Numbered from the stretch's first letter, positions 31,561 to 48,182 are shown. The stretch is 64,000 bases of DNA from Ignavibacteria bacterium (GCA_025612245.1 JAAXKQ010000005.1:134009-198008); one strand, 5' to 3'. Program-made: numbers and translations. Notes: generated by a model from the letters alone, not told the origin.

Positions 31561-31827
31561 TTCTGCCCCTGTCAATTATTCCTCTAAAAGCCCGAAATTT
31601 CGTTACTGCTGATAATATAATAAATTACGCCAGGATACCATATGCTTGTAAGCCTCATTATTTCGGGAAATAAATATTGGTTCCCTGGGCGCAGTAGCTT
31701 GCTTTCAGTGGGCTATCTGTATAAAAAAATGCAATGTAAATGCCGGGATGAAGAATTTCAGAAAGAGTTAACTATTTTTGAAAAATTACGCTATATTACT
31801 GAACGAAAAAATGGGAGCATCTTAAGT

Positions 31828-32157
31828 ATGAAAATGTCCGGTATTCCATTCGGCATTACAGACTGGTCGGGAATTGCCAGAACAGAGCACAAAGGAGAAA
31901 CCGGTACTGCTTACTGGCACACACAGCAATTTGGCGACATACGCGTGCGCATGGTTGAATATTCGCCCGGGTATCTTGCCGATCACTGGTGCCCAAAAGG
32001 GCACATTCTCTTTTGCCTTGAAGGGGAGCTCATAACTGAGCTTTCTGACGGAAGGAAGTTTACCCTTACTCCGGGGATGAGCTATCAGGTGGCCGACAAT
32101 ACAGAGCCTCACCGCTCCTATACGGCTACCGGAGCCAGGCTGTTTATAGTGGATTAG
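31828..32157 (+). CDS. DHCW-motif cupin-fold protein
   Basis: A 109-aa single-domain cupin. Two beta-strand blocks hold the usual metal-site residues (DIRVRMVEYSPGYLADHWCPKGHILFC in three adjoining segments, then GMSYQVADNTEPHRSY). The DHWCPKGH stretch resembles the signature of the DHCW cupin family. The frame is open further upstream to 31642, but that part (poly-basic, Cys-rich) is unlike any cupin. The ATG at 31828, preceded by GGGAG, gives a length normal for the family. Reaction unknown; probably a cytoplasmic metal-binding protein or small dioxygenase/isomerase-like enzyme. Confidence 0.82.
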   Translation: MKMSGIPFGITDWSGIARTEHKGETGTAYWHTQQFGDIRVRMVEYSPGYLADHWCPKGHILFCLEGELITELSDGRKFTLTPGMSYQVADNTEPHRSYTATGARLFIVD

Positions 32158-32271: not shown

Positions 32272-34386
32272 TCAGCTGATTATAACCTCTCTTTTTATTC
32301 CCAGCTTGCGCATCTTTGAGCCCAGGGTTTTCCCGTTGAGGCCGAGGAGTTCCGCGGCGCTGTTTTTACCCATGATTTTTCCGTTTGTAGCCCTGAGAGC
32401 CGATATAATGTATTCTTTTTCCATTTCTTCGAGTGTCTTGAAAGAAGAGAAATCCTCTTCTTTTTTGTTATTTTTAACGAACTTGACGTCGGAGAAGTCC
32501 AGTGTCTGCCCGGTTGAGACTATGGTGGCCCTTTCGATCATATGCTCCAGTTCCCTGATGTTGCCAGGCCAGTCATAATTCATGAATGCCTCAAAGTCAG
32601 CCCTGGAAATTTCTTTTACCCTTTTACCCATTGACCTGGCGTACTTTTCTGCAAAATGCCGGACAAATAGTGGCAGGTCCTCCTTGCGGTTTCTTAACGG
32701 GGGGACAGTAATCGGGAATACATTAAGGCGGTAGAAGAGGTCAGCCCTGAAGCGGCCTGCGTTTACTTCCTCTTCGAGGTTGCGGTTTGTTGCTGCAATA
32801 ACGCGAACGTCGGCCTTAAGGGTTTGTTTTCCACCGATGCGCTCAAATTCTTTTTCCTGAAGAACGCGCAGGAGTTTTGCCTGAAGCTCAAGAGGCAGTT
32901 CACCGATCTCGTCCAGGAAAATTGTGCCGCCGTTAGCAAGTTCAAACTTACCTATCCTTCTTTCCATTGCACCGGTAAAAGAACCCTTTTCATGGCCGAA
33001 GAGCTCTGACTCGATGAGCTGGGCCGGGAGGGTTGCGCAGTTAACTTTTACCATTACTTTGTCTTTCCTGGAAGAAGTATTGTGAATTGCCCGGGCAATC
33101 ATTTCCTTACCCGTGCCTGTTTCACCCAGTATAAGCACGGTAGCGTCTAGCATGGCCACCTGTTTTACCTTATATAATACGCCTTGAATGATTGTGCTGG
33201 AGCCTATTATGTCCTGGTAGCTGTCCTGATGGCTGATTTCATCTATAAGCGAGACTTTTTCCTCTTCGAGCTGTTTTTTGAGGGAGTCAATTTCCTCATA
33301 GGCGGCATAGTTTTTAAGCAGTACCGCAAACTGAGGTACAAGCTGAGAGGTAAAGGAGAGCTCCAGCGTTGGAGGAATTTTCTTTTTGATGATTCCCATT
33401 ATGGATTCAATCCTTCTTCCGTCGGTTGTCGTATATTGTTCCCAACGGAGCTCATGTACCTGGGAATTCCGGCAGATAAGGCTAAGACGTGGGTTCCTGC
33501 TGCACAAGCCTTCGAGCTGCCTGTTGTCAATTACAAGTGGAATGCCATCGCCCGGATGAGTAATGCCTGAGGATTCCAGCATGGAAAATACATCCTGGTT
33601 AGCTCCGTAAGGAATATATTCAAAGTTCTCCTGCAGCTTAAATCTTACGATGAGTGGGCTGCCTGTAAAAAAGTTGGACAACCTGGCTTCTGCATAATTG
33701 CAGAAAGGTTCACCGACTTCCGGCTTGTAAAATTCACGTGCCAGCTGATAGAAAAGGCTGTCCCTGTCCTTTACTGCAACCAGGCTATTAGTAATCCTAA
33801 GCAGGGCAGACTGAAAAAGCTCGCGCTTATGCAGTTCATCGAAGTAGAGGAAATTCCTGATCCCCACACCCGCCAGGTTTGCAAACTGCATGATAAATTC
33901 CAGCTTTTCCTCATCCTCAAAGGGATTTTCCCCAGAGACGCCAAAAAGAAAAAATCCTGTAATTATTCCGCTGCAGCGCAACGGGACCTGAACGAGCCGG
34001 CTGACATTATTCTTTTCAATTATGTGCCTGTATTCAGGTTTGCCGTTCAGGCTCTTTAGTATAGAAGGAGTGTCGTGGCTGATAATCCTGTCGGAAGTGA
34101 GATCCAGTCCGAAAGGAAGCTCATTGAGCTTATACACCCCAAGCCATTTACTTATGGAAACTTCCGGTCTTTGGGTTAATAAATCGGGAGAAGTTTCGCT
34201 AAAGAAAATGTAGGCGTTGGTTTTATCATTCTGGAACAGGCAAATGCCTCCAACGGGTGAATTATACATCTTATAAATCTTTTCAAAAATCGGCTTCATC
34301 AGTTCCTCAGGGCTCTGAACAGTTGCAATAGTTTCATTGAGTGAAAGGAGAAGCGAGATGTTATCTTTTTGCATATCTGGTCTCAT
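32272..34386 (-). CDS. GAF-domain sigma54 enhancer-binding protein (FhlA/NtrC-like)
   Basis: A 704-aa activator of sigma54 RNA polymerase. An N-terminal GAF-like sensor region (about 10-180) and a second sensory segment (to about 385) are followed by an AAA+ domain: Walker A GETGTGKE (Lys427), the GAFTGA loop in the variant GSFTGA (468-473) that contacts sigma54, Walker [13 protein letters not shown], and [15 protein letters not shown] Fis-type helix-turn-helix closes the protein ([22 protein letters not shown]). There is no receiver domain, so activation is probably by ligand binding to GAF, as in FhlA. It is divergent from the tolC-RND operon; the 183-bp gap carries a dyad element and a sigma54-like -24 box, and both recur before the operon at 40734. 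It probably controls both. An ATG at codon 5 is an alternative start. Confidence 0.93.
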
Positions 34387-34420
34387 AATTCGTCATACTG
34401 CTCATATTTAAGCGATGAAT

Positions 34421-34443
34421 TTAAGAAAGTGCTTAAATAAAAG
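34421..34443. promoter_or_regulatory. Candidate enhancer site for the EBP (tolC side)
   Basis: TTAAGAAAGTGCTTAA (34421-34436) runs into CTTAAATAAAAG (34432-34443). The stretch 34422-34443 matches 40361-40382 at 20 of 22 positions. Its centre lies about 65-70 bp before the sigma54-like element at 34497, a normal distance for an EBP enhancer. Confidence 0.6.
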
Positions 34444-34496
34444 CAATTACCTCCCTGCTTTGTTTCTAAATACTTATAATCCATCAAAAACCGTAC

Positions 34497-34512
34497 TGGC
34501 ACATAAACTGAA
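34497..34512 (+). promoter_or_regulatory. Sigma54-like promoter element of the efflux operon (weak -12)
   Basis: TGGCACATAAACTGAA fits the -24 box TGGCAYR fully, but the -12 box reads CTGAA instead of TTGCW (GG-N10-GA). It lies 58 bp before the TTG start of the tolC-like gene. Confidence 0.4.
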
Positions 34513-34569
34513 AGTATAATTGAACAGAAAAACAATCAGTTAACAATTTGTGAAAGAAACGGAGAAAAA

Positions 34570-35967
34570 TTGAAGCCGGAATTCAAATTTATTGTATTAT
34601 GTTCCTTGCTGCTGCTGGCCTTCATGTCGTTGCCTCTTAGAGCACAGAGCCCGCTGCAATCGGGTTTTTCCTTGAAGGACTGCATAAAGTATGCCTCTGA
34701 GAAGAATACTGATCTCAAGGCTGCCCGTATAGATGAAGAGATAGCCAAAAAGAAAGTAAATGAGGTGGCAGGTTCGGGGCTGCCGCAATTTGATATAACA
34801 GGAAATCTTGTAAATAACCTGAAGCTTCCCGCACAGCTTCTGCCGGGTGAGCTAATGGGTGGTGCTCCGGGGTCATTTATGGCAGTAAAATTCGGCACCA
34901 AGTATAATTTTACCTTTACAGGGCAGGTTACACAGCTCCTTTTTAACGGTTCATTCTGGGTGGGTCTGAGCGCCGCAAAAGAATCTGCCAATTATTACAG
35001 GCAGAATACAGAAAGTATTTCAGAACAGAACATTTACGAGGTAGCCTCTGCTTATTATCAGACACTAGTAATACAGAAGCAAATAAAGCTGCTTGAGTAC
35101 AATCTTGTTTCACTTGAGAAAGCCTTCCAGGATACAAAGCTCAGGTTTGAGAACGGCCGTGCCGTGGAAACAGACGTGGACCGGCTTAATGTAAATCAGA
35201 ATAACCTTCAGTACCAGCTGAAAAAGGCCCGTGAAGGACTCAAACAGTCGTATAACGTACTGAAGTTTAAGATAGGCATGCCGCTTGAAACGGCAATTAG
35301 CTTAAGCGACAGCATGTACTTCAGCCAGGATTCACTGGTTGCCGGGAAAATTGAAAGCCTGAAATATTCGGCAGATGAAGAGGTGAACTTTCAGAACAGG
35401 GCTGATTACAGAATGCTTCAGTCGGGACTCACGCTCCAGGAGCTGAACTGGAAAAACGAAGTATCAAAGAAGCTTCCGACATTAAGTGCATTTGGAAACT
35501 ATTCCTACCAGGCACAGAGGCCACAGGCAGATCTGTTTAATTCGCACAAGGAGTGGTTTAACTACTACTCTATAGGGTTGCAGGTAAGCCTTCCTATATT
35601 TAACGGGGGACAAACACTGGCCAGAGTACAGCAGGCCTCTCTTGAAATTGACAAGCTGAAGGAAACAATCAGGAAGACCGAGCAGGGGATAAACCTCGAA
35701 ATGTCCAATGCCATCATAAAATACAACAATGCCTATGACAACATTCAGTCGCAGAGTCTGAACGTTGCTCTTGCGCGCAAGGTATACAACAATTCTCAGC
35801 TTGAATACCGTGAAGGCAAGGCAACGGCACTGGCGCTGATTGATTCGGAGACAAAACTCCGTGAGGCGCAGACAAATTATGTTAACTCACTGCTTGACCT
35901 CTACATTGCCCGGCTGGATGTTGAAAAGGCAAAAGGGTCTTTACCGGCATATATAAATTCACTCTGA
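34570..35967 (+). CDS. TolC-family outer-membrane efflux protein
   Basis: Outer-membrane channel of a tripartite efflux pump. The 465-aa protein starts with a signal peptide (FIVLCSLLLLAFMSLPLRA before QSP), then FSLKDCIKYASEKNTDLKAA, the usual OEP opening. Two OEP repeats with long amphipathic coiled helices follow (YYQTLVIQKQIKLLEYNLVSLEK and DVDRLNVNQNNLQYQLKKA; repeated near 360-440). The start is TTG at 34570 with GGAG five bases before it; there is no ATG before the signal peptide. It is the first gene of an operon with the adaptor (46-bp gap) and the RND pump. A sigma54-type element and enhancer-like repeat precede it. Confidence 0.92.
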   Translation: MKPEFKFIVLCSLLLLAFMSLPLRAQSPLQSGFSLKDCIKYASEKNTDLKAARIDEEIAKKKVNEVAGSGLPQFDITGNLVNNLKLPAQLLPGELMGGAPGSFMAVKFGTKYNFTFTGQVTQLLFNGSFWVGLSAAKESANYYRQNTESISEQNIYEVASAYYQTLVIQKQIKLLEYNLVSLEKAFQDTKLRFENGRAVETDVDRLNVNQNNLQYQLKKAREGLKQSYNVLKFKIGMPLETAISLSDSMYFSQDSLVAGKIESLKYSADEEVNFQNRADYRMLQSGLTLQELNWKNEVSKKLPTLSAFGNYSYQAQRPQADLFNSHKEWFNYYSIGLQVSLPIFNGGQTLARVQQASLEIDKLKETIRKTEQGINLEMSNAIIKYNNAYDNIQSQSLNVALARKVYNNSQLEYREGKATALALIDSETKLREAQTNYVNSLLDLYIARLDVEKAKGSLPAYINSL

Positions 35968-36013
35968 CAATATTCATTTTACAACAAACGAGAAGCAAGA
36001 AGAGAAACAGAAA

Positions 36014-37075
36014 ATGAAAAAGAAAATCTTAATAATTGGTTCAGTACTTATTGCATTAATAGTAATATCCGCCAAGCTGATGGGAAATAAAGCTGAAGTG
36101 GACAAAAGGAACAAGACTAACGACCTGAACTTTAAGTCCGTTACAGTGAATATTGCTAAGGCGCTCAGGCAGGAAGAGTCTGCCAGGTTTACACTTGTAG
36201 GCACAACGGCAGGAAAAAACGAAGTTCTCATTCAGTCGCAGGGTAACGGGGAGGTGATAAAAATAAACTTCAGTACAGGCGACTATGTGACAAAGGGGAA
36301 AGTACTGGCGCAGTTAGATGACAGGCTTGCCCAGCTTTCACTTGAGAAAGCCAAGCTTGCTCTTTCAAGGGCTGAGGACGATTACAATAAGGAGAAAAAT
36401 CTTTATTCCGGGAAAGCCTCCACGGAAAACCAGCTGAGGGATAAAAAGATTGACTATGAAAACGCAAAGCTTTCGGTGGAACAGGCTAAAAAGCAGCTGG
36501 AATTCATGAGGGTAGCTGCCCCACAGAACGGCTACATAGTTGAAAAGCTGATTGAAAAAGGCTCTCTTGCCGGGCCAGGCAGTGCTGTAGCCAGGATAGT
36601 TGACATTTCACAGCTGAAGATAAATTTAAGTGTTTCCGAAAAGGATGTTTACAGCATAAAAACAGGCATGAGCGTCAGTGCCTCTTCGTCGGTTTATCCG
36701 GGTGTAACGTATTCGGGCAAGGTGACATTTGTAAGCAGTAAGGGTGACCAGGCGCATAACTATTCAGTTGAGGTAGCCATTAATAACAATCAATTGCACC
36801 CCCTCAAAGCAGGAACATTTACTTCCGTGGAATTCGGCATGGCATCAAAACACAATGTGCTCCTGATACCAAGGGAGGCTCTGACAGGAAGCATCAAGGA
36901 TGCAAAAGTATTTGTGGTAAACGGTAATATAGCACACCTCAGAAGTGTTACCATTGGTAACGATTACGGAAACTTCCTCGAGGTCCTTAGCGGCATTAGT
37001 GAAGGGGAAACAGTTGTTACAGCCGGACAGATCAACCTGGCGGATGGTTCACGCGTAGTTACAATAAATAATTAA
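36014..37075 (+). CDS. RND efflux periplasmic adaptor (HlyD/MFP family)
   Basis: Links the TolC-like channel to the RND pump. The 353-aa protein has one N-terminal hydrophobic helix (KILIIGSVLIALIVISAKLM) without a clear signal-peptidase or lipobox site, so it is probably inner-membrane anchored. The lipoyl half-motifs are visible (VLIQSQGNGEVIKINFSTGDYVTKGKVLAQLDD and VAAPQNGYIVEKLIEKGSLAG, each cut short here), with a helical hairpin between them (KLALSRAEDDYNKEKNLYSGK) and beta-barrel and membrane-proximal domains after (GVTYSGKVTFVSSKGD; LIPREALTG). It sits 12 bp before the pump gene. Confidence 0.92.
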   Translation: MKKKILIIGSVLIALIVISAKLMGNKAEVDKRNKTNDLNFKSVTVNIAKALRQEESARFTLVGTTAGKNEVLIQSQGNGEVIKINFSTGDYVTKGKVLAQLDDRLAQLSLEKAKLALSRAEDDYNKEKNLYSGKASTENQLRDKKIDYENAKLSVEQAKKQLEFMRVAAPQNGYIVEKLIEKGSLAGPGSAVARIVDISQLKINLSVSEKDVYSIKTGMSVSASSSVYPGVTYSGKVTFVSSKGDQAHNYSVEVAINNNQLHPLKAGTFTSVEFGMASKHNVLLIPREALTGSIKDAKVFVVNGNIAHLRSVTIGNDYGNFLEVLSGISEGETVVTAGQINLADGSRVVTINN

Positions 37076-37087
37076 GAGAGAATAATA

Positions 37088-40000
37088 ATGATAGATTTAT
37101 CGCTAAAAAGGCCGCTGATAGTCTTTGTTCTTTTCGCAACGATTGCTCTTTTGGGCTTTGCTACATTTAGTATGCTGAACATAGATCTTATGCCGAAATT
37201 CGAGACCAACGTCGTAACAGTAGCAACGGTATACCCGGGTGCCTCGGCAAGCGAGGTGGAGTCCTCGGTTACAAAAAAGCTTGAAGATGCCTTATCGACG
37301 CTGGAGAACCTGGATAAAATGACCTCAGTTTCTCAGGAGGGTGTATCCTTTACTACAATCGAGCTCAAGAGTGCAGCTGATCCTAACCAGGCAGTACAGG
37401 ACGCACAGAGAAAGATCAACTCTGTTTTGGCAACGCTTCCGACGGGTGTAAAGTCACCCGTTATTAGCAAGTTTTCCCCTTCGGAAATGCCGATAATGAA
37501 AATTGCCTTAACGGCTGAAATGCCTCCGGCAGAATTTTACAAAATAGCTGAAGACAGGATAAAGCCGAGGCTATCGAAGCTCAAAGGTGTGGGAGAGGTC
37601 AGTCTTCTTGGCGGCAGCGAAAGGGAAATTAAGGTTAACGTAAACCGGGATAAACTTAAGTCATATAACCTTTCGATACTGCAGGTGCTTATGGCAATCC
37701 AGAAAGCAAACCAGGATTTCCCGACAGGCAAAGTTGAAGAAACAAACAAGCAGTACACTGTTAGGCTTTCGGCAAAGTATTCTTCGCTTGAAGAGCTAAA
37801 GAATACTGCAATTGCAGTATTTAATAACCAGAGCAAAGTGCTGGTAAAAGACGTTGCGGAAGTTGAGGATGGAATTGCCGAGCAGACGCAGCTAAGCAGG
37901 TTAAATAATGCTTCTTCAATCGGCATTCAGGTCCAGAAACAGTCGGATGCCAACACGGTAGAAGTAGCAAGGCTGGTAAGAAACGAAATAAAGGAAATAG
38001 AAAAGGAATACGCTTCGAATCACATGCGCTTTGAAATTGCAACTGATAACTCCACATACACGATGGAAGCGGTTAACTCTGTTGTGGAGGACTTACTGCT
38101 GGCGATATTGATTGTTTCGGTTGTAAGTTTCCTTTTCCTCCACAGCCTGAGAAGTGCAATGATAGTAATGGTTGCAGTGCCGCTTTCAATGCTACCTGCG
38201 TTCATATTCCTCTACCTGTTTGGTTATACGCTAAATATTATGTCGCTCATGGCACTTTCGCTTGCAGTAGGCATACTTGTAGATGACTCCATTGTGGTCG
38301 TTGAAAACATTTACCGTTACCTTGAAATGGGCAAGACAAGGTTTGAGGCCGCACTTCAGGGTGCGAAACAGATTCTTTATACGGCAATATCAATAACGCT
38401 TGTTATAGTAATTGTATTCCTGCCTCTTATGGTGACGGGCGGAATAATTGGAAATATACTGAAGGAGTTTGCACTTCCCTTAGTCATTTCAACTCTGTCG
38501 AGTCTGCTGGTATCCTTCACGCTTACCCCCTTGCTGCTTTCTAAGTTCGGCAGGCTTGAAGACATCTCTTCAGATACATTTATGGGAAGATTCAGCCGCA
38601 CGTTTGAGAACGGGTTCAATAAGGTAAAAGGTTTATATGCAGGCATACTCAGGTACGGATTATCGCACAGGAAGACTTTATATGCCGGGGTAGTAGCTCT
38701 TTTTATTGCCTCTCTCACGCTGTTCCCGGCGGGGCTCATAGGAACAGCATTCATCCCAGACACGGATCAGGGTGAATTTGTAGTTGATCTCGAGATGTCG
38801 CCACAGATCTCCGTGTCTGCAAACAATATGCTGACAAAGAGAGTAGAAGGTATTCTGGCTTCAAAGAAAGAAGTTGTTAAGATATTTACAAACGTAGGCT
38901 ACTCAGGTAACATGCTCAGTTCTACAGCCAAGAATAACGTTACGCAGCTGACTGTTACGATAGTTGATAAAAAGTACAGGACTATAGGCGTAAATGAATA
39001 CGGCAAAATGATGAAAGAGGAAATAGCGGCAAAGGTTCCGGGAGTAAAAGTAAGGGTATCACCTACAAGCGTTGCCGGAGGTGCCGGAACCGCGCCGGTA
39101 CAGTTTGTAATAAACGGGACAGACATGGAAAAAATACGCTCCACGGCTACGATGCTTATGGATATAATGAAAAAGACTCCCGGCACTTCGGACGTTAAGT
39201 ATTCAATTGACGATCCGAAGCCGGAGGTGAAAATACAAATTGACCGCCAGAAAATGGAGCAGCTGGGCCTTTCAATTGCCGACGTTGGTGCCACAATGAG
39301 AACCGCGCTTGCAGGCAACACAGATTCAAAATATACAGACGGACCTTTTGAGTACGACATTAATCTTGCCTTCGACAAGTTCGACAGGAAAAACAGCAAT
39401 GACGTAGGAAGCATTACTTTTATAAACAGCCGCGGCGAGGCAATTGAGCTGAACCAGTTTGCCGAGATTACGCAGACAATGGGTCCAAGCATGCTTGAAA
39501 GAACAGACCGCAACAGCTCCATAACAGTGTCATGCTTTGTTATAGGAAGGGGATCGGGTACGGTAGGTGACGAAATAAAGAAAGGCTTTGAAGGCAGGAT
39601 TCCCGCAGGAGTAACCATTAAGCCCGCAGGTATGCTCAAGACTCAGGGAGAGGCATTCTCAAGCCTGGGTTATGCAATGATTGCGGCACTAATACTGATC
39701 TATCTTACCATGGTTACGCTTTACAATTCATTGCTCCACCCGGTAGTTGTACTCTTCTCAATTCCCGTGGCTTTGATAGGCTCGTTCTTTGCACTCGGAC
39801 TGACTCTGGAGAACCTGACAATATTTTCAATTGTCGGGCTCATTACACTCATGGGGCTGGTTGCCAAGAATGCAATTCTTCTGGTGGACTTTACAAACCA
39901 CTTAAGGGCCGAAGGGCGCGAATTAAAAGAAGCCTTAATTGAAGCCGGAAAAGAAAGGCTCCGTCCTATACTCATGACGACTGCAGCAATGATCTTTGGT

Positions 40001-40219
40001 ATGCTTCCTGTTGCGTTAGCAAGTGGGGCAGGTGCCGAGATGAAAAACGGTATGGCATGGGTTATTATTGGCGGCCTTACAAGTTCACTATTCCTGACGC
40101 TGGTTCTGGTTCCATCGATCTATATGTCTTTTGAAACCATAAAGATGAAGCTCAAAAGAAAAAATGCGGGCAAAGAGGCAGCTGAGGCAGAATTGGAAAA
40201 TCCAGCTTACCAAAAGTAA
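37088..40219 (+). CDS. RND efflux transporter permease (AcrB/MdtB-like)
   Basis: Proton-driven inner-membrane pump, 1043 aa, the family's standard length. The first helix (LIVFVLFATIALLGFATFSML) is followed by the porter-domain opening PGASASEVESSVTKKLED. TM4 carries the proton-relay pair Asp399-Asp400 in GILVDDSIVVVENIYRYLE. The second half repeats the fold with GLVAKNAILLVDFTNHLR and the motif GKERLRPILMTTAAMIFGMLP. The uncharged context at the periplasmic ends and the lack of the heavy-metal (HME) motif in TM4 favour the hydrophobe/amphiphile class; the substrate is unknown. Third gene of the efflux operon. Confidence 0.95.
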   Translation: MIDLSLKRPLIVFVLFATIALLGFATFSMLNIDLMPKFETNVVTVATVYPGASASEVESSVTKKLEDALSTLENLDKMTSVSQEGVSFTTIELKSAADPNQAVQDAQRKINSVLATLPTGVKSPVISKFSPSEMPIMKIALTAEMPPAEFYKIAEDRIKPRLSKLKGVGEVSLLGGSEREIKVNVNRDKLKSYNLSILQVLMAIQKANQDFPTGKVEETNKQYTVRLSAKYSSLEELKNTAIAVFNNQSKVLVKDVAEVEDGIAEQTQLSRLNNASSIGIQVQKQSDANTVEVARLVRNEIKEIEKEYASNHMRFEIATDNSTYTMEAVNSVVEDLLLAILIVSVVSFLFLHSLRSAMIVMVAVPLSMLPAFIFLYLFGYTLNIMSLMALSLAVGILVDDSIVVVENIYRYLEMGKTRFEAALQGAKQILYTAISITLVIVIVFLPLMVTGGIIGNILKEFALPLVISTLSSLLVSFTLTPLLLSKFGRLEDISSDTFMGRFSRTFENGFNKVKGLYAGILRYGLSHRKTLYAGVVALFIASLTLFPAGLIGTAFIPDTDQGEFVVDLEMSPQISVSANNMLTKRVEGILASKKEVVKIFTNVGYSGNMLSSTAKNNVTQLTVTIVDKKYRTIGVNEYGKMMKEEIAAKVPGVKVRVSPTSVAGGAGTAPVQFVINGTDMEKIRSTATMLMDIMKKTPGTSDVKYSIDDPKPEVKIQIDRQKMEQLGLSIADVGATMRTALAGNTDSKYTDGPFEYDINLAFDKFDRKNSNDVGSITFINSRGEAIELNQFAEITQTMGPSMLERTDRNSSITVSCFVIGRGSGTVGDEIKKGFEGRIPAGVTIKPAGMLKTQGEAFSSLGYAMIAALILIYLTMVTLYNSLLHPVVVLFSIPVALIGSFFALGLTLENLTIFSIVGLITLMGLVAKNAILLVDFTNHLRAEGRELKEALIEAGKERLRPILMTTAAMIFGMLPVALASGAGAEMKNGMAWVIIGGLTSSLFLTLVLVPSIYMSFETIKMKLKRKNAGKEAAEAELENPAYQK

Positions 40220-40227
40220 ATTAAAAA

Positions 40228-40291
40228 GAACCCGGCGGCACAGGTGTGCTGCAAATAACGCACTGGCAAAAAGGTTATTGCTGCCGGGTTC
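40228..40291 (+). terminator. Branched hairpin after the RND operon
   Basis: GAACCCGGCGGCA (40228-40240) pairs with TGCTGCCGGGTTC (40279-40291) with one G-U pair. The 38-nt interior has its own GTGC/GCAC hairpin. No strong T-run follows, so it may slow, process or stabilise the transcript rather than simply terminate it. Confidence 0.5.
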
Positions 40292-40339
40292 CTCCTTAAA
40301 ATAAATTGCAGGAAACAATTCCTTAGATGTCATCAGTTG

Positions 40340-40386
40340 CTTTTATATAAGAAGCAAAAATAAGAAAGTGCTTATATATAAGAAGC
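40340..40386. promoter_or_regulatory. Paired dyad elements, candidate enhancer cluster for the EBP
   Basis: CTTTTATATAAG (40340-40351) and CTTATATATAAG (40371-40382) each continue with AAGC, giving a direct repeat TATATAAGAAGC 31 bp apart (three helical turns). The sequence TAAGAAAGTGCTTA at 40361-40374 is identical to 34422-34435 upstream of tolC. Confidence 0.6.
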
Positions 40387-40439
40387 GCACTCATCGAAAA
40401 ATACGTCCGCAGCCTTGTTTTGATGCATTTATTCTGAAG

Positions 40440-40455
40440 TGGCATGGCATTTGTT
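40440..40455 (+). promoter_or_regulatory. Sigma54-like promoter of the VTC/CotH operon
   Basis: TGGCATGGCATTTGTT agrees with TGGCAYR-N4-TTGCW except for T instead of C in the -12 GC. Its GG lies about 73 bp after the centre of the shared enhancer-like element, close to the 70 bp seen upstream of tolC. The leader to the ATG at 40734 would be about 280 nt. Confidence 0.5.
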
Positions 40456-40505
40456 TTAATGGCCGGCACACAAAACGGGCGCTGATGATAATCCCGATCT
40501 GAATA

Positions 40506-40532
40506 TTTAACGTCATAAAAATGTTTAACGTC
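40506..40532. repeat. Direct repeat TTTAACGTC, 18 bp apart
   Basis: TTTAACGTC occurs at 40506-40514 and 40524-40532 (the first preceded by ATA, the second by ATG). It may be a tandem protein-binding site downstream of the proposed sigma54 start. Confidence 0.4.
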
Positions 40533-40733
40533 CGTACTGAGCTAAAGATTTTGTCGGTGCAGAATAAGATGAAGATATGAGGGGTAAAAGATGGGACAGA
40601 TGGAATAATGGAAGCAGTTCTAAGGAAGAGGAGAAGAACTATACGGGGAAATAGCTCAGGGATTATTGATGCAGCACCTGAAAAATAAATTATGAAGTAA
40701 CACTAATACAGATTGCGGAAGAGGAATAAAACA

Positions 40734-41564
40734 ATGACTGATAATGGAAATGTGATTGAAATTGAAAGATATGCGAAGAAAGAAACAGCCGAATTCCAGT
40801 TCAGGAGACTGGAAAAGAAATTTCTGATCAACACTGCAGCAGCAGAAATTATGAAGGGCCAGGTAGGGTTTTATCTGCCAAATGATGAAAAAGCCTATAA
40901 ATATCCCGGAATAAGGTCTGTTTATTTCGACAACAGGGAACTCAAGTGCTTCAATGAGCACATGAATAAGGTTAATCCAAGGTTTAAGGTTCGTTTCAGG
41001 CAGTATAAAAAAGATGAGAATATACAGGGCGCAGGATTCCTGGAAATTAAGAAAAAAAACAATGAGGTGACCGTAAAGGACCGCTTTAAGGCTGATTTTT
41101 GCCTGATTGACAAAATTACGGATGAAACATTGCCGGACTTTATAGTTTCAGAGAACAAAGGACTGAACATAGATAAACTGAGCTGTATTTACTACGAAAT
41201 TACAGGGAAGATGGGCCTTTATAAATTAGAACCCGTTACCGCGGTAAATTACCGCAGGGAAGCCTTTGAAAATAGTGAAAGGACACTCAGAATTACTTTT
41301 GACTCCGACCTGGAATTTGAGGCTATGCCGAATAAAATACTCGGCTTTTCAGCACTCAAAAGCAGTATGCCTCAGGATTTTATAATCATGGAAATCAAGT
41401 ATGCAGACAGCATGCCTGAATGGCTAAAATCGTTGCTTAAATTTAATGGCTTAAGATCGGAGCATTTCTCAAAATATTGCGAGTCAATACGAAAGCTGAA
41501 ATTAAGTGCGGAAAGTAGCCAAATGAATGCCGTTCCCGGATTTAACCTTTTTAAAATTAATTAA
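40734..41564 (+). CDS. VTC-domain polyphosphate polymerase-like protein
   Basis: A 276-aa cytoplasmic protein made almost wholly of a VTC domain, the tunnel-shaped fold that in yeast Vtc4 makes polyphosphate from ATP. Visible landmarks are FRRLEKKFLI (basic strand 1), YPGIRSVYFDN, FKVRFRQYKK, FLEIKKK and KDRFKADF, and a late acidic strand FIIMEIKYADSMPEW, matching the alternating basic and acidic residues that line the tunnel. ATG at 40734 has GGAAGAGGAATAAAA before it; a longer frame starting with TTG at 40713 is less likely. First gene of a five-gene operon (gap to the next gene 6 bp). Bacterial VTC proteins of this kind, next to DUF4956 and CotH, have no settled product, so polyphosphate synthesis is a family-based inference. 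Confidence 0.87.
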   Translation: MTDNGNVIEIERYAKKETAEFQFRRLEKKFLINTAAAEIMKGQVGFYLPNDEKAYKYPGIRSVYFDNRELKCFNEHMNKVNPRFKVRFRQYKKDENIQGAGFLEIKKKNNEVTVKDRFKADFCLIDKITDETLPDFIVSENKGLNIDKLSCIYYEITGKMGLYKLEPVTAVNYRREAFENSERTLRITFDSDLEFEAMPNKILGFSALKSSMPQDFIIMEIKYADSMPEWLKSLLKFNGLRSEHFSKYCESIRKLKLSAESSQMNAVPGFNLFKIN

Positions 41565-41570
41565 ACGAAT

Positions 41571-42248
41571 ATGGACATCTTAAAATTATTAACATCTATA
41601 CACATAAACTACAGCTGGGTTGCGGTACTGGCGAGTTTTATTTCGACAACACTGCTGTCACTGACGGTCGTGAAAATTTACATGATAACCCACAAAAAAA
41701 AAGGATACGACCAGGATTTTCTTCAGGCCCTGATATTCCTGAGCCTGGTTGTTACATCGGTCATGCTGGTAATAGGAAATAACCTGGCAGGGGCTTTTGG
41801 ACTGGTAGGCGCAGTATCCATCATCAGGTTCCGTACGAGGCTGGATAATTCGCAGGATACGGCATACATTTTTCTTGAGATGGCAATCGGGCTGACGTGC
41901 GGATTGCAACAGTACACGGTTGCAGTTTCAGCAACCGTATTTATTACTTTAATAATACTGATCCTCTGGAAATCGGACTTCGGGGGGGCGGGATCGCAGG
42001 GAACGGGCAATATTCTAAGGGTTAAGGTAAATGAGGTAATAAGCGGCAGGGAGATTGTGGAAAGAACATTTACTGATGACGTTCAGGCCTGGGATATCAT
42101 TAGCATTACTGCCATAGATGATAAAAAGGCAATTATAGACTATAAGGTGATGCTTAAGAAGAACATAACTGCCCAGGGCTTTGCCGATAAACTCTTCAAT
42201 TCTATCAAAGATAAATTAACGGTGCTGAAATTTGAGACTGTTCAGTAA
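41571..42248 (+). CDS. DUF4956 membrane protein
   Basis: A 225-aa inner-membrane protein with about four helices in the first 135 residues (WVAVLASFISTTLLSLTVV, ALIFLSLVVTSVMLVIG, the loop GAFGLVGAVSIIRFRTRLD, then FLEMAIGLTCGL and VAVSATVFITLIILILW) and a soluble C-terminal domain of about 80 residues (VKVNEVISGREIVER to the end). GLVGAVSIIRFRT is the hallmark of DUF4956. From memory, DUF4956 genes commonly lie beside VTC genes, which suggests a membrane partner that receives, moves or anchors the VTC product. It starts 6 bp after the VTC gene and ends 10 bp before the next start. Confidence 0.87.
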   Translation: MDILKLLTSIHINYSWVAVLASFISTTLLSLTVVKIYMITHKKKGYDQDFLQALIFLSLVVTSVMLVIGNNLAGAFGLVGAVSIIRFRTRLDNSQDTAYIFLEMAIGLTCGLQQYTVAVSATVFITLIILILWKSDFGGAGSQGTGNILRVKVNEVISGREIVERTFTDDVQAWDIISITAIDDKKAIIDYKVMLKKNITAQGFADKLFNSIKDKLTVLKFETVQ

Positions 42249-42258
42249 GTTCAGGCGT

Positions 42259-43284
42259 ATGAACATATTCGTACGCCCTTCGATAATTTTCCCCATTATT
42301 GTGCTCTCCTTCTTTTCCGGGGAAACTTCCCTGGCTCAGGAAAAAGTCCAGTTTTCGGGTTATGGCGCTGCCGGCTACAAGTTTTACGACAGGAATATAC
42401 TCAGGCAATATAACCAGGAAGTATATTATGAAGGTAAACTTCAGGCTGATATAAAAATCAACAGGCATCTTGATGCCCAGCTGGACATGCGCGGAAGTTC
42501 TGAGGATGAAAGGCTTTTGCTGCGTGAATTTTCTGTAAAGTTCGACTACCTGAAATACCTGAAGTTTAAGGTGGGCAACATTAAAAAACCGTTCGGACTC
42601 GAGCAGCTTGTAAATACCGAGGAACTCCTGACAGTTGAAAGAAGCTACATCCAGCGTTCAATTTCGGACATAGGCTACGGAGGCAGGAGCGTAAGCCTGA
42701 TGGCATATTATAAATTCAATAAGAAGCGCTCGGAGTTCCCGTTCTCATATTCACTGGCCTTAATGAAGGATAACTCTCTTAACACAAGCCTTGCAGGAAG
42801 GTTCTCTTTTCACGATGAGGCACTTATTTATTCACTAAATTACCTTTATCAGCGTCTTGGCGGTGAATACCCCGAGAGGGCCAATGGCTTTAGCGCCGAT
42901 CTGGTGTATGAAGGTGAACTATTGAAATCTTCATTTGAAGTTCAGTACGTGGAGGATCCGATTGAAAGCCAAAGGCTAAAATTATCCGGAGAGGGAAGGA
43001 ACGTGTATGTGTGCGGAATAAAATCTATCAATGCCTTTTCTATCAATCCCGATGGTGAGGTAATAAAGACCATAGAGCCTGTTTTACTCGCGGGAATGTA
43101 TTTCCCGGACAGTAGGGAGAAAAACACGCACACCTTTGAGATCATTGCGGGCGGGAATATTTATCTGGACAAGGATCTGCGCCTCAGGTTAAATGGCGAC
43201 CTGCTGCTTTCAAAAGACAGATATAATTCCTCTTACAGCACAACAGACTCAAAACTAGTATTTGAATGTCAGGTTACATTCTGA
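42259..43284 (+). CDS. Outer-membrane porin-like protein (OprO/OprP-type)
   Basis: A 341-aa protein with signal peptide (IIFPIIVLSFFSGETSLA before QEK) and then repeated amphipathic strands: VQFSGYGAAGYKFYDRN, AQLDMRGSSEDERLLLREF, LKFKVGNIKKPFGLEQL and a final aromatic strand SKLVFECQVTF. The VGNIKKPFGLEQL segment is the VGxxKxPFG box of phosphate-selective O/P porins and related Bacteroidota channels. A C-terminal Phe fits BAM-dependent insertion. I start at the ATG at 42259; a TTG at 42232 would overlap the DUF4956 gene. In an operon with phosphate-linked genes, phosphate or phosphorylated-polymer passage is an attractive inference only. Confidence 0.75.
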   Translation: MNIFVRPSIIFPIIVLSFFSGETSLAQEKVQFSGYGAAGYKFYDRNILRQYNQEVYYEGKLQADIKINRHLDAQLDMRGSSEDERLLLREFSVKFDYLKYLKFKVGNIKKPFGLEQLVNTEELLTVERSYIQRSISDIGYGGRSVSLMAYYKFNKKRSEFPFSYSLALMKDNSLNTSLAGRFSFHDEALIYSLNYLYQRLGGEYPERANGFSADLVYEGELLKSSFEVQYVEDPIESQRLKLSGEGRNVYVCGIKSINAFSINPDGEVIKTIEPVLLAGMYFPDSREKNTHTFEIIAGGNIYLDKDLRLRLNGDLLLSKDRYNSSYSTTDSKLVFECQVTF

Positions 43285-44438
43285 TGAAGTATCTTAAATA
43301 CATTTCAGCCGTCCTTTTTATGCTTGCAATTACTTCGTGCCGGGAGAGCATAATAAACGGCCCGGAAGACAACATAGCCTCAATTCCTCAGCTGGACACT
43401 TATATAAGTGACGGAAATTACCAGATACTGCAGGAAAACAGGTTCAGCAATGTATCGGTTGCGGCAGATATTTTCGCAGGCCGGGAGAAGCTGAGTGCAA
43501 CATTGGAAGCGCAGGGGGCGGGTTCAAGATATTTCCCAAAGTGGGGCTATTATGTCAGGCTTGATAACGGTCAGGAAATTGGTGGCGAAAACAGTTTTAA
43601 CTTAAGTGCCCAGCCTCATGACAGGACAATGCTCAGAAGCATTCTTGCTTCTTACATATATTCCGAAGCCGGCTTTGAGGTTTTCCATTCATCGCACGTA
43701 TTCCTGAAGATAAACGGTAAGCCCAAGGGATTATATCTGCTCACAGAAAAAATTGACGAAGTTTTTTTTGCAAAGAGGGACATTCCCGTTCATGAGCTCA
43801 TAAAGGTAATCTTTGAAGCAAAATTTTCTTTTACGGAGCTAAACAATCCAGCGAGCTGCTTTGAAAAGAAGATACCCGATGACAATAACCTAAACAATCT
43901 CCGGGATTTCATCCATTGCCTTGATAATTCAGATAATAGTGATCTGTTCCAGAGGCTCGGGAAATATCTTGATATCAGGCAGTACCTGATGTATCATGCC
44001 GTTACTTCCGTACTGAATAACCTTGATGGATTTGAGAATAATTTTTACCTGGTAAAAGATTACCCGGATTCGCCTTATAGAATATTGCCCTGGGATTTTG
44101 ACAAGACGTTTGACACTGGAATAAACGTTGGTTTAGCGGGCAATAACGCGATAATCCGGAAGCTGCTGCAAAATGACAGCTGTCTTTCCATCTATAAGTC
44201 GGATCTGCGTATGATACTAAATAGCTGCTTTACCGAAGATAGACTTTACCCTATCATAGATTCTGTTTATATTAAAATAAAAGGTGCCTACAACGAAGAT
44301 CCGTACCTCGGTGCAAATGGAATTTCACTCGAAGATGAAATCTCCGAACTCAAGAGGTTCATCAGAGAACGAAGGGCATACCTGTTAAACAATATCGACT
44401 CTTTTAGGGGATTGACTGACAAATGGGGAGAATTATAG
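43284..44438 (+). CDS. CotH-family kinase, lipoprotein
   Basis: A 384-aa predicted lipoprotein: signal YISAVLFMLAITSC with the lipobox Cys at about residue 19. The CotH core is clear: QPHDRTMLRSILASYIYSEAG (family N-lobe helix), FLKINGKPKGLYLLTEKID and the metal-binding loop LPWDFDKTFD (Asp271, Asp273). CotH proteins are atypical protein/polymer kinases (B. subtilis CotH phosphorylates spore-coat proteins). Being lipid-anchored, it would act in the periplasm or at the outer-membrane inner face, where ATP is scarce, so the phosphodonor is a puzzle. Its ATG overlaps the porin stop by one base (ATGA-type coupling) and its end overlaps the PAP2 gene by 16 bases. Confidence 0.88.
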   Translation: MKYLKYISAVLFMLAITSCRESIINGPEDNIASIPQLDTYISDGNYQILQENRFSNVSVAADIFAGREKLSATLEAQGAGSRYFPKWGYYVRLDNGQEIGGENSFNLSAQPHDRTMLRSILASYIYSEAGFEVFHSSHVFLKINGKPKGLYLLTEKIDEVFFAKRDIPVHELIKVIFEAKFSFTELNNPASCFEKKIPDDNNLNNLRDFIHCLDNSDNSDLFQRLGKYLDIRQYLMYHAVTSVLNNLDGFENNFYLVKDYPDSPYRILPWDFDKTFDTGINVGLAGNNAIIRKLLQNDSCLSIYKSDLRMILNSCFTEDRLYPIIDSVYIKIKGAYNEDPYLGANGISLEDEISELKRFIRERRAYLLNNIDSFRGLTDKWGEL

Positions 44439-45244
44439 TTGTACTGCTGTTACTCTTCCAGGCGGTAATTCAGCCGCAGGATTTTATTCAAAAGCTCAAG
44501 CTGTCGGCAGGCAATATTTCTCAGGCTGTAACAGAAAACCTGAGGTGGTACGACCTGCCCATTGGGGCGGTTTATTTAACCGGGAAATATTTTGCTCCGG
44601 ACCAGGATGACAGAATTAAGCTGAGATCAGCCGGAATTGATGATGAAATTCAAAGAAGGCTGGGTATATCGGGAAGATACTCATTCGGCAGCATGGATAA
44701 GAATATCATACCGCAGGACATACTCCTCGCAAGAACGCTCTACAATGTTGCCTATGACCTGTTCTCAGGCAGTGCTGATGGCAAGGAAAACCACAGGCAC
44801 GCGTTCCTTTTCTACAAGTCACTTGTTTATACCTACACACTTACTGAATTTGCAAAAAACTGGACACGAAGGCAGCGTCCAGACAGCAGCAACATGGAGA
44901 GTTTTTTCAGCGGCCACAGCGCAACTACCTTTGCCGCCGCCTCTTTCCTTTCTCGTGAGCTTAACGATTATATAAATCAGAAAATGCCCGAAAAGTCCAT
45001 CCCGAGGTTTGCCCTCAAGTTTGCTTCATTTTCAGCATTATACGGTTGGGCCTCCTATGTTGCTTACAGCAGGATGAGAGACAATAAACATTATTTTAGC
45101 GACGTCCTGATAGGTGCGCTTACCGGTACGGCAGTAAGTAATTTAGTTTACAACTTCTATATCACGAATAGGAACAGTCCGGTAGACATAAACCTGGGAA
45201 TAATAAGAAGCGCCCCATCTTTTTCTCTTACCATTGTGCTTTAA
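44423..45244 (+). CDS. PAP2-superfamily phosphatase
   Basis: A 273-aa exported or membrane-associated phosphatase with all three PAP2 signatures: KX6RP (Lys145 to Pro153 in KNWTRRQRP), SGH (163-165) and SRX5HX3D (Ser216-Arg217, His223, Asp227). The N-terminal hydrophobic stretch (IIVVLLLLFQAVIQPQ) looks like a signal peptide. The long region between it and the catalytic core lacks the six helices of lipid-type PAP2 enzymes, so this is closer to periplasmic acid phosphatases or haloperoxidase-like members. Last gene of the operon, overlapping the CotH gene. A phosphatase beside a CotH kinase and a VTC polymerase suggests turnover of a phosphorylated surface or periplasmic product. Confidence 0.88.
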   Translation: MGRIIVVLLLLFQAVIQPQDFIQKLKLSAGNISQAVTENLRWYDLPIGAVYLTGKYFAPDQDDRIKLRSAGIDDEIQRRLGISGRYSFGSMDKNIIPQDILLARTLYNVAYDLFSGSADGKENHRHAFLFYKSLVYTYTLTEFAKNWTRRQRPDSSNMESFFSGHSATTFAAASFLSRELNDYINQKMPEKSIPRFALKFASFSALYGWASYVAYSRMRDNKHYFSDVLIGALTGTAVSNLVYNFYITNRNSPVDINLGIIRSAPSFSLTIVL

Positions 45245-45462
45245 AAATATTATGAATGTTTTACAAAAGTCCAATAGCCATAAACTACGTGACCATCATT
45301 TACTTGCTCCAGGAGACCCTCAGGGGCTTTCATTCTAAAAAAAGCCTTCCTTACCAGTAGAATATTACTTATTTTTGTTTGTTCTGCTATTATTAGCATT
45401 AAAGTGTAGAATCTCAAATTACCTATAAATGTACTTAAACTACAAACATTTCCGGAGATCCT

Positions 45463-47100
45463 ATGAAAAAGTTAATTCTAGTGTTCTTGTTCATTATCGG
45501 CACTTTCAGCAGCGTTTTATTTGCACAAAAGGTCACTATTTCTGGAAGGATTCTAGGCAACGACGGCAGGCCTCTGGCAAAAGCAGTTGCTGAAGTGTAT
45601 GATGAAAATAGCGACAAATTTACCAGGATCCCCGTGGAAAAAGACGGGTCATTCACAATTGAAACCGAGTCGAAATATCTCGAGCTAAGACTCTCGGGCG
45701 TAAACCACCGGAGTACGTTCCTGCCCGTAATCATTCATAACACAGAGCAACTGAAATTTGACGTTTTACTTGCCACTAACAGCTACATCGATGACTTCAG
45801 CAAAGTCAAAATGATCTGCAGCATCAACGATTATAGCCGGGAGAATCCATATACTTTTAAGAAAAACGACAAAGGCATTTATTTTGTGGATATAGATACC
45901 GAGAAAGACACCATTGAATATGAGCTCATTGGTCTTTCGAAACAGAGTGAAACCCACAGCTGGAACGGAACAATGTCGGATGACTTCAAGTATGATTCCG
46001 GCGGCGACTTCAGGTCGGTAATTTATAAGAAGGGAAAAACAGTCCACATAGAATTCGATCCGTCAAAGCTTATTCCGGAAAACACGGAGGAGAAAATTGT
46101 TGCTGAAGACGAGACTCTTCCCGAAATCATAATGCTCAAGAATAGCGTTGAATATAACAATAACCTGAACCGCATGCACCTGGAAGCCGCAGACAACAAG
46201 GACAAAAGACCGGACTTTTCAGCAGCAATTGAAGGCTTAAGGATAAAGGCCTTTTCCGAAAAGGATCAATTCCTAAAGGGCTACTATTCAATCAGTTACT
46301 TAAAGTACTGGCCTTATATTGAGAACAGCAAGTTTGATACGATGATTTGCCGCCAGACGATTGAAGCTGTTCCTCCGGAATCGGACTTGTGGATGATAAA
46401 CCCGAATCTTTTGGCGGTAATGACCAGAGGCTTCAGGTATGAGAACAAGGGGAAATTTGATAAATACATAAAAGATGTAGTTGAGGTACAGAAGAATACA
46501 TCCGTCAAAGCAGAAGCATTAAGGGGCCTGATCTGGGATGCAAAAGTAAAAGGGGATACTGCTAGCTTTAACGCTTACATTCAAAGGATATTAAAAGACT
46601 GCCCGAATACGTATCAGGCCAAAAGCATCAAAGCTGATTTTCTGACGCTAATGGTTGGTGCTGATGTTCCAGATTTTGAAGTAAAATCTCTTTCTGATGA
46701 AAACGTCATCTATTCCAACAAGACGCTGAAGGGGAAATTTTATTTGATGGATTTCTGGGCCACCTGGTGCGGACCGTGTGTTGGAGAACTGCCGGGCCTG
46801 CACGAAGCTTATCAGGAATTCAAAGACAAGAACTTTGAAATATTAAGCATTTCACTGGACGGCAGCAGAGAAGACGTCGTTAAATTCCGGGAGGGAAAGT
46901 TCAAGATGCCATGGCTGCATGCCTTTCTGGACAAGAGTTTTAATAGTGAAATAGCAAAGAAATTTGGAATTACCGGCATTCCCAAGGTTGTTCTTGTATC
47001 GGATCAGGGAAAAATTCTTGCAATTGACATGGATGCAAGGGGAGAGAATCTGAAGAAGACCCTGGAGAAATACTTAAATTCAGGCGTCTCTTCAAAATAG
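45463..47100 (+). CDS. Periplasmic TlpA-like thiol-disulfide oxidoreductase with N-terminal beta domain
   Basis: A 545-aa protein with signal peptide (LILVFLFIIGTFSSVLFA before QKV), a carboxypeptidase-regulatory-like beta domain (ISGRILGNDGRPLAKAVAEVYD), a long helical middle (about 250-400) and a C-terminal AhpC/TSA-thioredoxin domain with DFWATWCGPCVGELP (Cys436, Cys439) and the cis-Pro segment GITGIPKVVLV. The CGPC pair supports reduction of disulfides in exported proteins or cytochrome c maturation. This long architecture is typical of Bacteroidota/Ignavibacteria TlpA proteins. ATG at 45463 follows CCGGAGATCCT. Monocistronic, with a terminator 60 bp downstream. Confidence 0.88.
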   Translation: MKKLILVFLFIIGTFSSVLFAQKVTISGRILGNDGRPLAKAVAEVYDENSDKFTRIPVEKDGSFTIETESKYLELRLSGVNHRSTFLPVIIHNTEQLKFDVLLATNSYIDDFSKVKMICSINDYSRENPYTFKKNDKGIYFVDIDTEKDTIEYELIGLSKQSETHSWNGTMSDDFKYDSGGDFRSVIYKKGKTVHIEFDPSKLIPENTEEKIVAEDETLPEIIMLKNSVEYNNNLNRMHLEAADNKDKRPDFSAAIEGLRIKAFSEKDQFLKGYYSISYLKYWPYIENSKFDTMICRQTIEAVPPESDLWMINPNLLAVMTRGFRYENKGKFDKYIKDVVEVQKNTSVKAEALRGLIWDAKVKGDTASFNAYIQRILKDCPNTYQAKSIKADFLTLMVGADVPDFEVKSLSDENVIYSNKTLKGKFYLMDFWATWCGPCVGELPGLHEAYQEFKDKNFEILSISLDGSREDVVKFREGKFKMPWLHAFLDKSFNSEIAKKFGITGIPKVVLVSDQGKILAIDMDARGENLKKTLEKYLNSGVSSK

Positions 47101-47420: not shown

Positions 47421-48182
47421 ATGACCTCAACCAGCAATATCGGCCAGGAATTCAAAGAGAAACTGGCATTAAAATACAGCGCAGTCGGGCTGTATCATGA
47501 CAAGAGTAAACCCCTGGATGCACTCGAATTAAAAAAGCCCGGTCAGGGCTGTGTTATGCCGTTTATATTTCAAAGTGCAAAAGGTAAAACCTTTGCATTC
47601 AGCGAAAATACAATGGGATTTGCCTGCTCGGCATTTTACTTCGGATACAAGGACTGGATTTTCCCGGGAATTGAAAACTTCCTTTCCTGCGGACCTTTTC
47701 CGGGCAGGGAATGCGAAAGGTTTGTTAAAAATCCCGAACTTACAAAGAAGTACCTAGAAGGGATCCGGATGGAAAATAAAACCGAAGGATATACGATATT
47801 AAAACCACTGGAGAATTTTACACAGGATGAAATTCCAGAGGTAGTGATATTCTTTGCAAATGCCGACCAGTTAAGCGCCCTTTCTTTTCTTGCTTATTAT
47901 GATGCCCCGGAAAGAGAGGACCGTGTAATTACAAGATTCGCCTCTGCCTGTGCGGCATCCGTTATGATGCCTCTTCAGCACGCCCTGAAAAATGAAGACA
48001 AGGCTGTCTGGGGGATGCACGACATTTCAGCACGTGCAAAGCTTCCGGCAGATCTTATGACGTTTGCATTGCCCTTTAATTTTCTCAGGAAAATTCATGA
48101 AAGCCTGAACGAAAGTTTTCTTTCAACTCACCAGTGGGAAGTAATCCGTCAGAGGATTATGAAAGGGGATGAGGAGAAATAG
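47421..48182 (+). CDS. DUF169-family protein
   Basis: A 253-aa cytoplasmic protein matching the DUF169 layout: an N-terminal LKYSAVGLYHDKSKP, then a conserved Cys block (GQGCVMPFIFQSAKGKTFAF), NTMGFACSAFYFGY, and a late HAL/DISAR segment with hydrophobic strands. Several Cys residues (QGCV, FACS, LSCGPF, ECERF) might bind metal or a cofactor. No catalysed reaction is established for the family. It stands alone between the TlpA-like gene and the convergent giant T9SS gene. Confidence 0.75.
   Translation: MTSTSNIGQEFKEKLALKYSAVGLYHDKSKPLDALELKKPGQGCVMPFIFQSAKGKTFAFSENTMGFACSAFYFGYKDWIFPGIENFLSCGPFPGRECERFVKNPELTKKYLEGIRMENKTEGYTILKPLENFTQDEIPEVVIFFANADQLSALSFLAYYDAPEREDRVITRFASACAASVMMPLQHALKNEDKAVWGMHDISARAKLPADLMTFALPFNFLRKIHESLNESFLSTHQWEVIRQRIMKGDEEK

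Follow-up and report, generated by a model that had tools for sequence, protein, structure and literature searches.

The window analysed here, a 64,000-nucleotide stretch from an Ignavibacteria bacterium (GCA_025612245.1, JAAXKQ010000005.1:134009-198008), carries a five-gene operon encoding, in order, a VTC-domain protein, a DUF4956 membrane protein, an outer-membrane barrel (the porin below), a lipoprotein kinase of the CotH family and a PAP2 phosphatase predicted to be secreted. Judged by gene order and phylogeny, the locus is a composite in which a porin-CotH-PAP2 trio has been joined to a polyphosphate-type VTC-DUF4956 pair. We tentatively read it as an envelope-spanning phosphoryl-transfer module fed by polyphosphate synthesis, at a probability of roughly 0.45. 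This reading builds on the operon itself, the conservation of its core, the intactness of its catalytic residues, the joining of two modules and a statistical link between the trio and a second PPK1.

Distribution and modular origin

VTC homologues were searched in 96 genomes, that of the window and 95 relatives, and found in 28. VTC adjoins DUF4956 in nearly all of the 33 other VTC loci. The five-gene form occurs among them only in genome G004 (record JAUZPB010000038.1, 'Bacteroidota bacterium'), which was also the sole record returned by a VTC scan of genome contigs; the remaining loci mostly consist of VTC and DUF4956, sometimes accompanied by a CotH of another type. Protein identities between G004 and the window were 56 % for VTC, 73 % for DUF4956, 71 % for the porin, 65 % for CotH and 64 % for PAP2, and recurrence of the same gene order at this divergence argues for more than chance adjacency.

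A porin profile was searched against 391 genomes of the class, which is probably Ignavibacteria-like, with an E value of 1e-28 or better taken as a strong match. It matched in 34 genomes, 21 of these strongly, and among 395 genomes sampled from the phylum, strong matches were confined to the same class. Porin, CotH and PAP2 genes were found on a single strand and in this order in 16 further loci (L087-L102) from several families, with neither VTC nor DUF4956 detected beside the trio in any of them. Locus L103 has porin-CotH with a divergent PAP2, and L104 and L105 have DUF4956-porin-CotH with PAP2 missing. Porin-CotH is the constant element and PAP2 nearly so; VTC and DUF4956 are variable. Within the window's family, the porin was absent from G001 and G002, G003 lying outside the porin sample.

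A preliminary, sequence-only reading of this DNA had the porin and PAP2 added to a VTC-DUF4956-CotH neighbourhood and looked to relatives for the same arrangement. Beside VTC the two genes recur only in G004 among the 33 loci, whereas the trio itself is conserved in 16 more genomes. Because porin-CotH-PAP2 is a conserved operon in its own right, the order of 'addition' is reversed, and VTC and DUF4956 stand beside a conserved trio.

The CotH tree nests the window and G004 proteins within the trio clade (18 rows, 100/100), away from the long CotHs that ordinary VTC loci carry. The DUF4956 tree groups them with L104 and L105 (98/96), and the VTC tree recovers them as a long, well-supported pair of unsure placement. 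It is the nesting of CotH in the trio clade, together with the grouping of DUF4956 with the DUF4956-porin-CotH type, that argues for a composite origin.

Two loci illustrate the CotHs found elsewhere. At L037:4345-7944, an ordinary locus, a CotH of about 1200 aa with a lamin-tail (LTD) domain and a type IX secretion system (T9SS) sorting tail adjoins VTC-DUF4956 and would represent, from this single locus, a secreted CotH type in ordinary VTC loci. L063:8923-13039 holds a divergent VTC-CotH-DUF4956 set, in which the usual catalytic motifs are missing from the aligned 900-aa CotH.

Association with a second PPK1

A PPK1 gene is found within a few kb of the trio at L087 and L088, and a PPK1 paralog at 5-9 kb in G021, G036 and G049. 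The copy near the trio is not the ordinary PPK1, which these genomes also have, but a second paralog. Of 17 trio genomes, 12 carried this paralog, against 7 of 46 others; within family f4 the figures were 6 of 7 and 0 of 5. With families f2 and f4 collapsed to genera, the counts were 8/10 and 6/22 (within-family permutation p = 0.0125, a test corrected for genus and family only and not for the full tree). The genomes of the paralog comparison were hand-chosen and took in every f2 and f4 genome known to carry two copies, so that the background rate is not underestimated. Class-wide, at least two PPK1 genes were found in 11 of 17 trio genomes compared to 26 of 374 others. The trio has a statistical link to the second PPK1 that is independent of VTC. 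In the window genome and G004, which are without the second paralog, the operon includes VTC instead, and we hypothesize that VTC and the second PPK1 replace one another.

The neighbourhood of the trio in the f2 genomes (L087:294-7493 and L088) also includes genes for an HD/PycTM protein, a SixA-like phosphatase, an Omp85-type protein and an SdiA-regulated-like protein beside that for the PPK1 paralog.

Operon organization

Table 1. Genes of the five-gene operon (window coordinates)
Product	Position	Strand	Pfam match (E value)
VTC/TTM-domain polyphosphate polymerase-like protein, 276 aa	40734..41564	+	VTC, 1.3e-42
DUF4956 membrane protein, 225 aa	41571..42248	+	DUF4956, 3.3e-18
Outer-membrane beta-barrel (porin), 341 aa, signal peptide	42259..43284	+	Porin_O_P, 1.6e-4 (borderline)
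CotH-family atypical kinase, lipoprotein, mature from Cys19	43284..44438	+	CotH, 4.4e-48
PAP2-superfamily phosphatase, 273 aa	44423..45244	+	PAP2, 6e-19

The five open reading frames are contiguous over 40734-45244 (Table 1). The spacing is +6 bp between VTC and DUF4956, +10 bp between DUF4956 and the porin with ATG 42259 as the best porin start, -1 bp between the porin and CotH with CotH starting at ATG 43284 (-19 bp if at ATG 43266), and -16 bp between CotH and PAP2. Intergenic distances around the unit are 514 bp upstream and 218 bp downstream. Promoter-like sites did not exceed the level of shuffled sequence, so no promoter is claimed. The sequence-only reading of one tightly coupled operon with gaps of -16 to +10 bp was confirmed for all five reading frames and their spacings, with the order recurring in G004. 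Its further claim of parts from the cytoplasm through to the outer membrane also drew support, in that the products would be assigned to the cytoplasm, inner membrane, periplasm and outer membrane.

It is extremely improbable that the five are independent genes that merely happen to be adjacent. Such an explanation would suit a five-gene form seen in two genomes only and absent from the same-genus G001, and is opposed by the overlapping starts and stops, by an order kept at 56-73 % identity with different immediate flanks, and by conservation of the trio in 16 further genomes.

Predicted properties of the encoded proteins

VTC, single-copy in the window genome, has no signal peptide or transmembrane segment and is predicted by hydropathy to be cytoplasmic. 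Residues E27, K29, K85, R87, R89, E104, K106, K115, R175, R186, E220, K222, S246 and K247 are invariant in 19 homologues, and the protein has the acidic and basic residues of the TTM fold signature (ExK, KxRxR, ExK, R, ExK, SKY). The family profile matched yeast Vtc4 (3g3q) at 1.3e-21. In our own reading of the alignments, R87/R89 and E220 align with Vtc4 R264/R266 and E426, the three residues that were changed to inactivate Vtc4 (PMC9911596). A lack of basic tunnel residues, named beforehand as grounds for giving up the proposed cross-envelope system, was not borne out, and they are intact on sequence. The protein is predicted to be a polyphosphate polymerase making polymer from ATP. DUF4956 has about four hydrophobic segments within residues 16-133, followed by a soluble C-terminal domain (hydropathy), and weak similarity to MgtC; structure prediction from a two-row alignment gave no usable fold (mean predicted local distance difference test score, pLDDT, 48). 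The Pfam matches of both proteins agree with the polymerase fold and membrane protein first proposed.

The CotH lipobox is AITSC, and Cys19 is invariant in 21 homologues; the lipid anchor is most likely at the outer membrane. The protein aligned with Bacillus cereus CotH (5jd9) over its whole length at 3.3e-31, scoring 111.9 bits as a single sequence and 219.6 bits as a profile over the whole kinase domain. D248, N253, W270, D271 and D273 are kept, comprising the catalytic Asp and Asn, the equivalent of Trp245 (W270) and the metal Asp (D271/D273), with residue roles taken from PMC7821199 and PMC12189002. With its catalytic residues and lipobox intact, the protein fits the lipid-anchored kinase originally described. 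In the Bacillus enzyme, adenine is sandwiched by Tyr142 and Trp245 (PMC12189002). The Tyr142 half is replaced by Ile173 in the window; most trio members have Ile, Phe or Met at this position, and L091 and L103-L105 have Tyr. The sandwich is a feature of the Bacillus enzyme that may or may not define the family. Ile173 is a pocket substitution that is no proof of lost ATP use and does not decide the donor.

A somewhat unlikely alternative is a surface-modification module using ATP or another ordinary donor, in which the porin and CotH would phosphorylate a surface glycan or protein, PAP2 would trim the product, and VTC-DUF4956 would be regulatory or accessory, with no polyphosphate export. This would parallel the VTC-DUF4956-CotH(-DUF4832) accessory genes found by Gram-positive Pel clusters, and is consistent with porin-CotH being the constant pair in all arrangements and with the many VTC loci that pair DUF4956 with a different, long CotH (LTD and T9SS tail in the one examined). 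The window operon is nevertheless without a glycan synthase, the second-PPK1 association points to polyphosphate, and an extracytoplasmic source of ATP would be unexplained, as it is for the spore-coat CotH, where it is a stated open question (PMC7821199).

The PAP2 triad is complete (K145-x6-R152-P153; S163-G164-H165; S216-R217-x5-H223-x3-D227), as had been claimed, and is present in all 19 aligned members except that Gly164 of the SGH motif is Ala in one. An N-terminal hydrophobic signal with no further strong transmembrane segment (hydropathy) suggests a periplasmic or secreted enzyme. The PAP2 profile matched human phospholipid phosphatases at 7.7e-11. A tandem PAP2 pair occurs in the trio of several f4 genomes (L093, L094, L097-L100).

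These phospholipid phosphatases, the best match of the PAP2 profile, would also fit a cycle on outer-membrane lipid head-groups such as inositol lipids, with CotH as a lipid or inositol kinase and PAP2 as its lipid-phosphate phosphatase. In G034, DUF4956-porin-CotH begins about 46 bp after an inositol-lipid type gene run (L104:1351-10301) of Aminotran_3, CDP-OH_P_transf (CDP-alcohol phosphatidyltransferase), GFO/IDH/MocA, LPG_synthase_TM, HAD and myo-inositol-1-phosphate synthase. We consider this cycle very unlikely, however: the sister genome G057 is without such neighbours, no trio locus was seen with inositol-lipid genes (not all neighbours were family-scanned), and the window PAP2 seems soluble, unlike the lipid phosphatases with six transmembrane segments. 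As a general feature, an inositol-lipid context was rejected, since G034 alone shows it.

The porin has a visible signal peptide, is 34-47 % identical to homologues in other trio genomes, and has no net basic excess (K+R 42, D+E 44). It matched Porin_O_P at 21.5 bits (cut-off 20.9), the match covering 107 of 350 residues, and 15 of 21 homologues matched the family, the best at 2.5e-7. The earlier OprO/P-like label is barely supported for the window protein itself; 'phosphate-selective porin' would rest on a borderline match. The porin profile found nothing in viral contigs, and no PHROGs family was assigned.

Phosphate scavenging would have the barrel admit phosphorylated compounds, PAP2 dephosphorylate them in the periplasm, VTC or PPK1 store the phosphate as polyphosphate, and CotH be regulatory or kinase-dead. 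It accords with the match of the PAP2 profile to lipid-phosphate phosphatases, the relation of the porin family to OprO/P, weak as this is, and the co-occurrence of storage enzymes with the trio. We regard it as unlikely, as it leaves unexplained the full catalytic residues of CotH and its place as the most constant partner of the porin, and the DUF4956-porin-CotH form is without PAP2.

Proposed function

The proposed polyphosphate-fed module, for which we infer the topology, the direction of phosphate flow, the substrate, the identity of the donor and the coupling of DUF4956 to translocation, would have as its core the barrel, the lipid-anchored kinase and the periplasmic phosphatase. CotH would phosphorylate a substrate in the periplasm or at the surface, which may be a protein, a glycan or a lipid head-group; PAP2 would reverse this or recover phosphate, and the barrel would be a passage or docking point. 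Cytoplasmic VTC would make polyphosphate from ATP, and DUF4956, its near-constant inner-membrane partner, probably holds VTC at the membrane or moves the chain outward, like the transmembrane domains of yeast VTC. The polyphosphate would supply the envelope with phosphate, energy or a phosphodonor, and in relatives the role of VTC appears to fall to a second PPK1.

Several observations weigh against this reading. The trio is found in genomes without an adjacent VTC, and 5 of the 17 trio genomes are without the second PPK1; a polyphosphate supply tied to the trio is therefore not obligatory. Most of the PPK1 paralogs are physically distant from the trio, and those close to it share one synteny within f2 that is probably a single event. 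All genomes concerned except G206 carry some PPK1, and an extra supplier may therefore be redundant. The porin is only barely Porin_O_P, a Protein Data Bank search with its profile gave no match (OprP and OprO included), and structure prediction from a two-row alignment gave no usable fold (mean pLDDT 30).

The strongest form of the proposal, that an outer-membrane CotH uses polyphosphate from VTC or a dedicated second PPK1, brought out via DUF4956, as donor for reversible surface phosphorylation with PAP2 as eraser, is distinctly unlikely. If true, it would constitute an ATP-independent extracytoplasmic phosphorylation system. Extracytoplasmic kinases need a phosphodonor, and a conserved operon in which a lipid-anchored CotH stands alongside a phosphatase and a barrel, accompanied by VTC or a second PPK1, makes polyphosphate a directly testable candidate. 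The bacterial VTC-DUF4956 pair also gains a context in which to look for polymer export.

Genomic setting

Directly beside the operon lie genes for an RND efflux pump and a thioredoxin-fold protein. In G001, the orthologues of window genes 31642-32157 and 47421-48182 are adjacent, which indicates that a block of about 15 kb (window 32272-47100, about 32.3-47.1 kb) is missing from that site (L115:11725-12934). The block holds a sensor kinase, TolC/MFP/RND efflux genes, the five-gene operon and the thioredoxin-fold protein, and the difference is an insertion or a deletion. In G004, the operon has immediate flanks that differ from those of the window and is directly followed by orthologues of window genes 56473-58989 and 59016-59804. 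The notion of a different neighbourhood in every genome was accordingly softened, as the G004 operon abuts genes located 11 kb downstream in the window. Separately, DNA of window 48499-48700 matches dozens of places in family genomes and is probably a repeated C-terminal sorting domain of a 1428-aa minus-strand gene.

Comparison with known systems

No report of CotH, PAP2 and a porin together was found in the open-access papers searched. The eukaryotic VTC complex (Vtc4 3g3q; PMC9911596) and the operon have in common a TTM polymerase domain, in which the invariant acidic and basic residues agree, and the pairing of polymerase and membrane protein. They differ in that the window VTC has neither an SPX domain nor a fused transmembrane domain, its membrane partner is DUF4956 rather than a Vtc1-type protein, and it is linked to outer-membrane genes. 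The Bacillus spore-coat kinase (5jd9/5jda) matches the window CotH over the whole domain, including the catalytic Asp/Asn/Asp and Trp245 equivalents; the window protein is instead lipid-anchored, genomically tied to a porin and has Ile at the Tyr142 equivalent, and neither CotB nor CotG was seen as a neighbour. Ordinary VTC-DUF4956 loci of the same class share the adjacency of these two genes but are without a window-type porin or PAP2, and any CotH present comes from different clades.

VTC-domain and CotH genes are near neighbours in a Clostridium locus (PMC2879425), and CotH, polyphosphate polymerase, DUF4956 and DUF4832 form an accessory group contiguous with pelDEADAFG in Gram-positive Pel clusters (PMC7112168). 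Three of the five families of the window are thus contiguous in the Pel accessory cluster. In contrast, no Pel genes lie directly beside the five-gene operon, which therefore lacks the contiguity with pelDEADAFG; the operon includes a barrel and PAP2, belongs to a Gram-negative envelope, and has a CotH from a clade of short lipoproteins linked to the porin.

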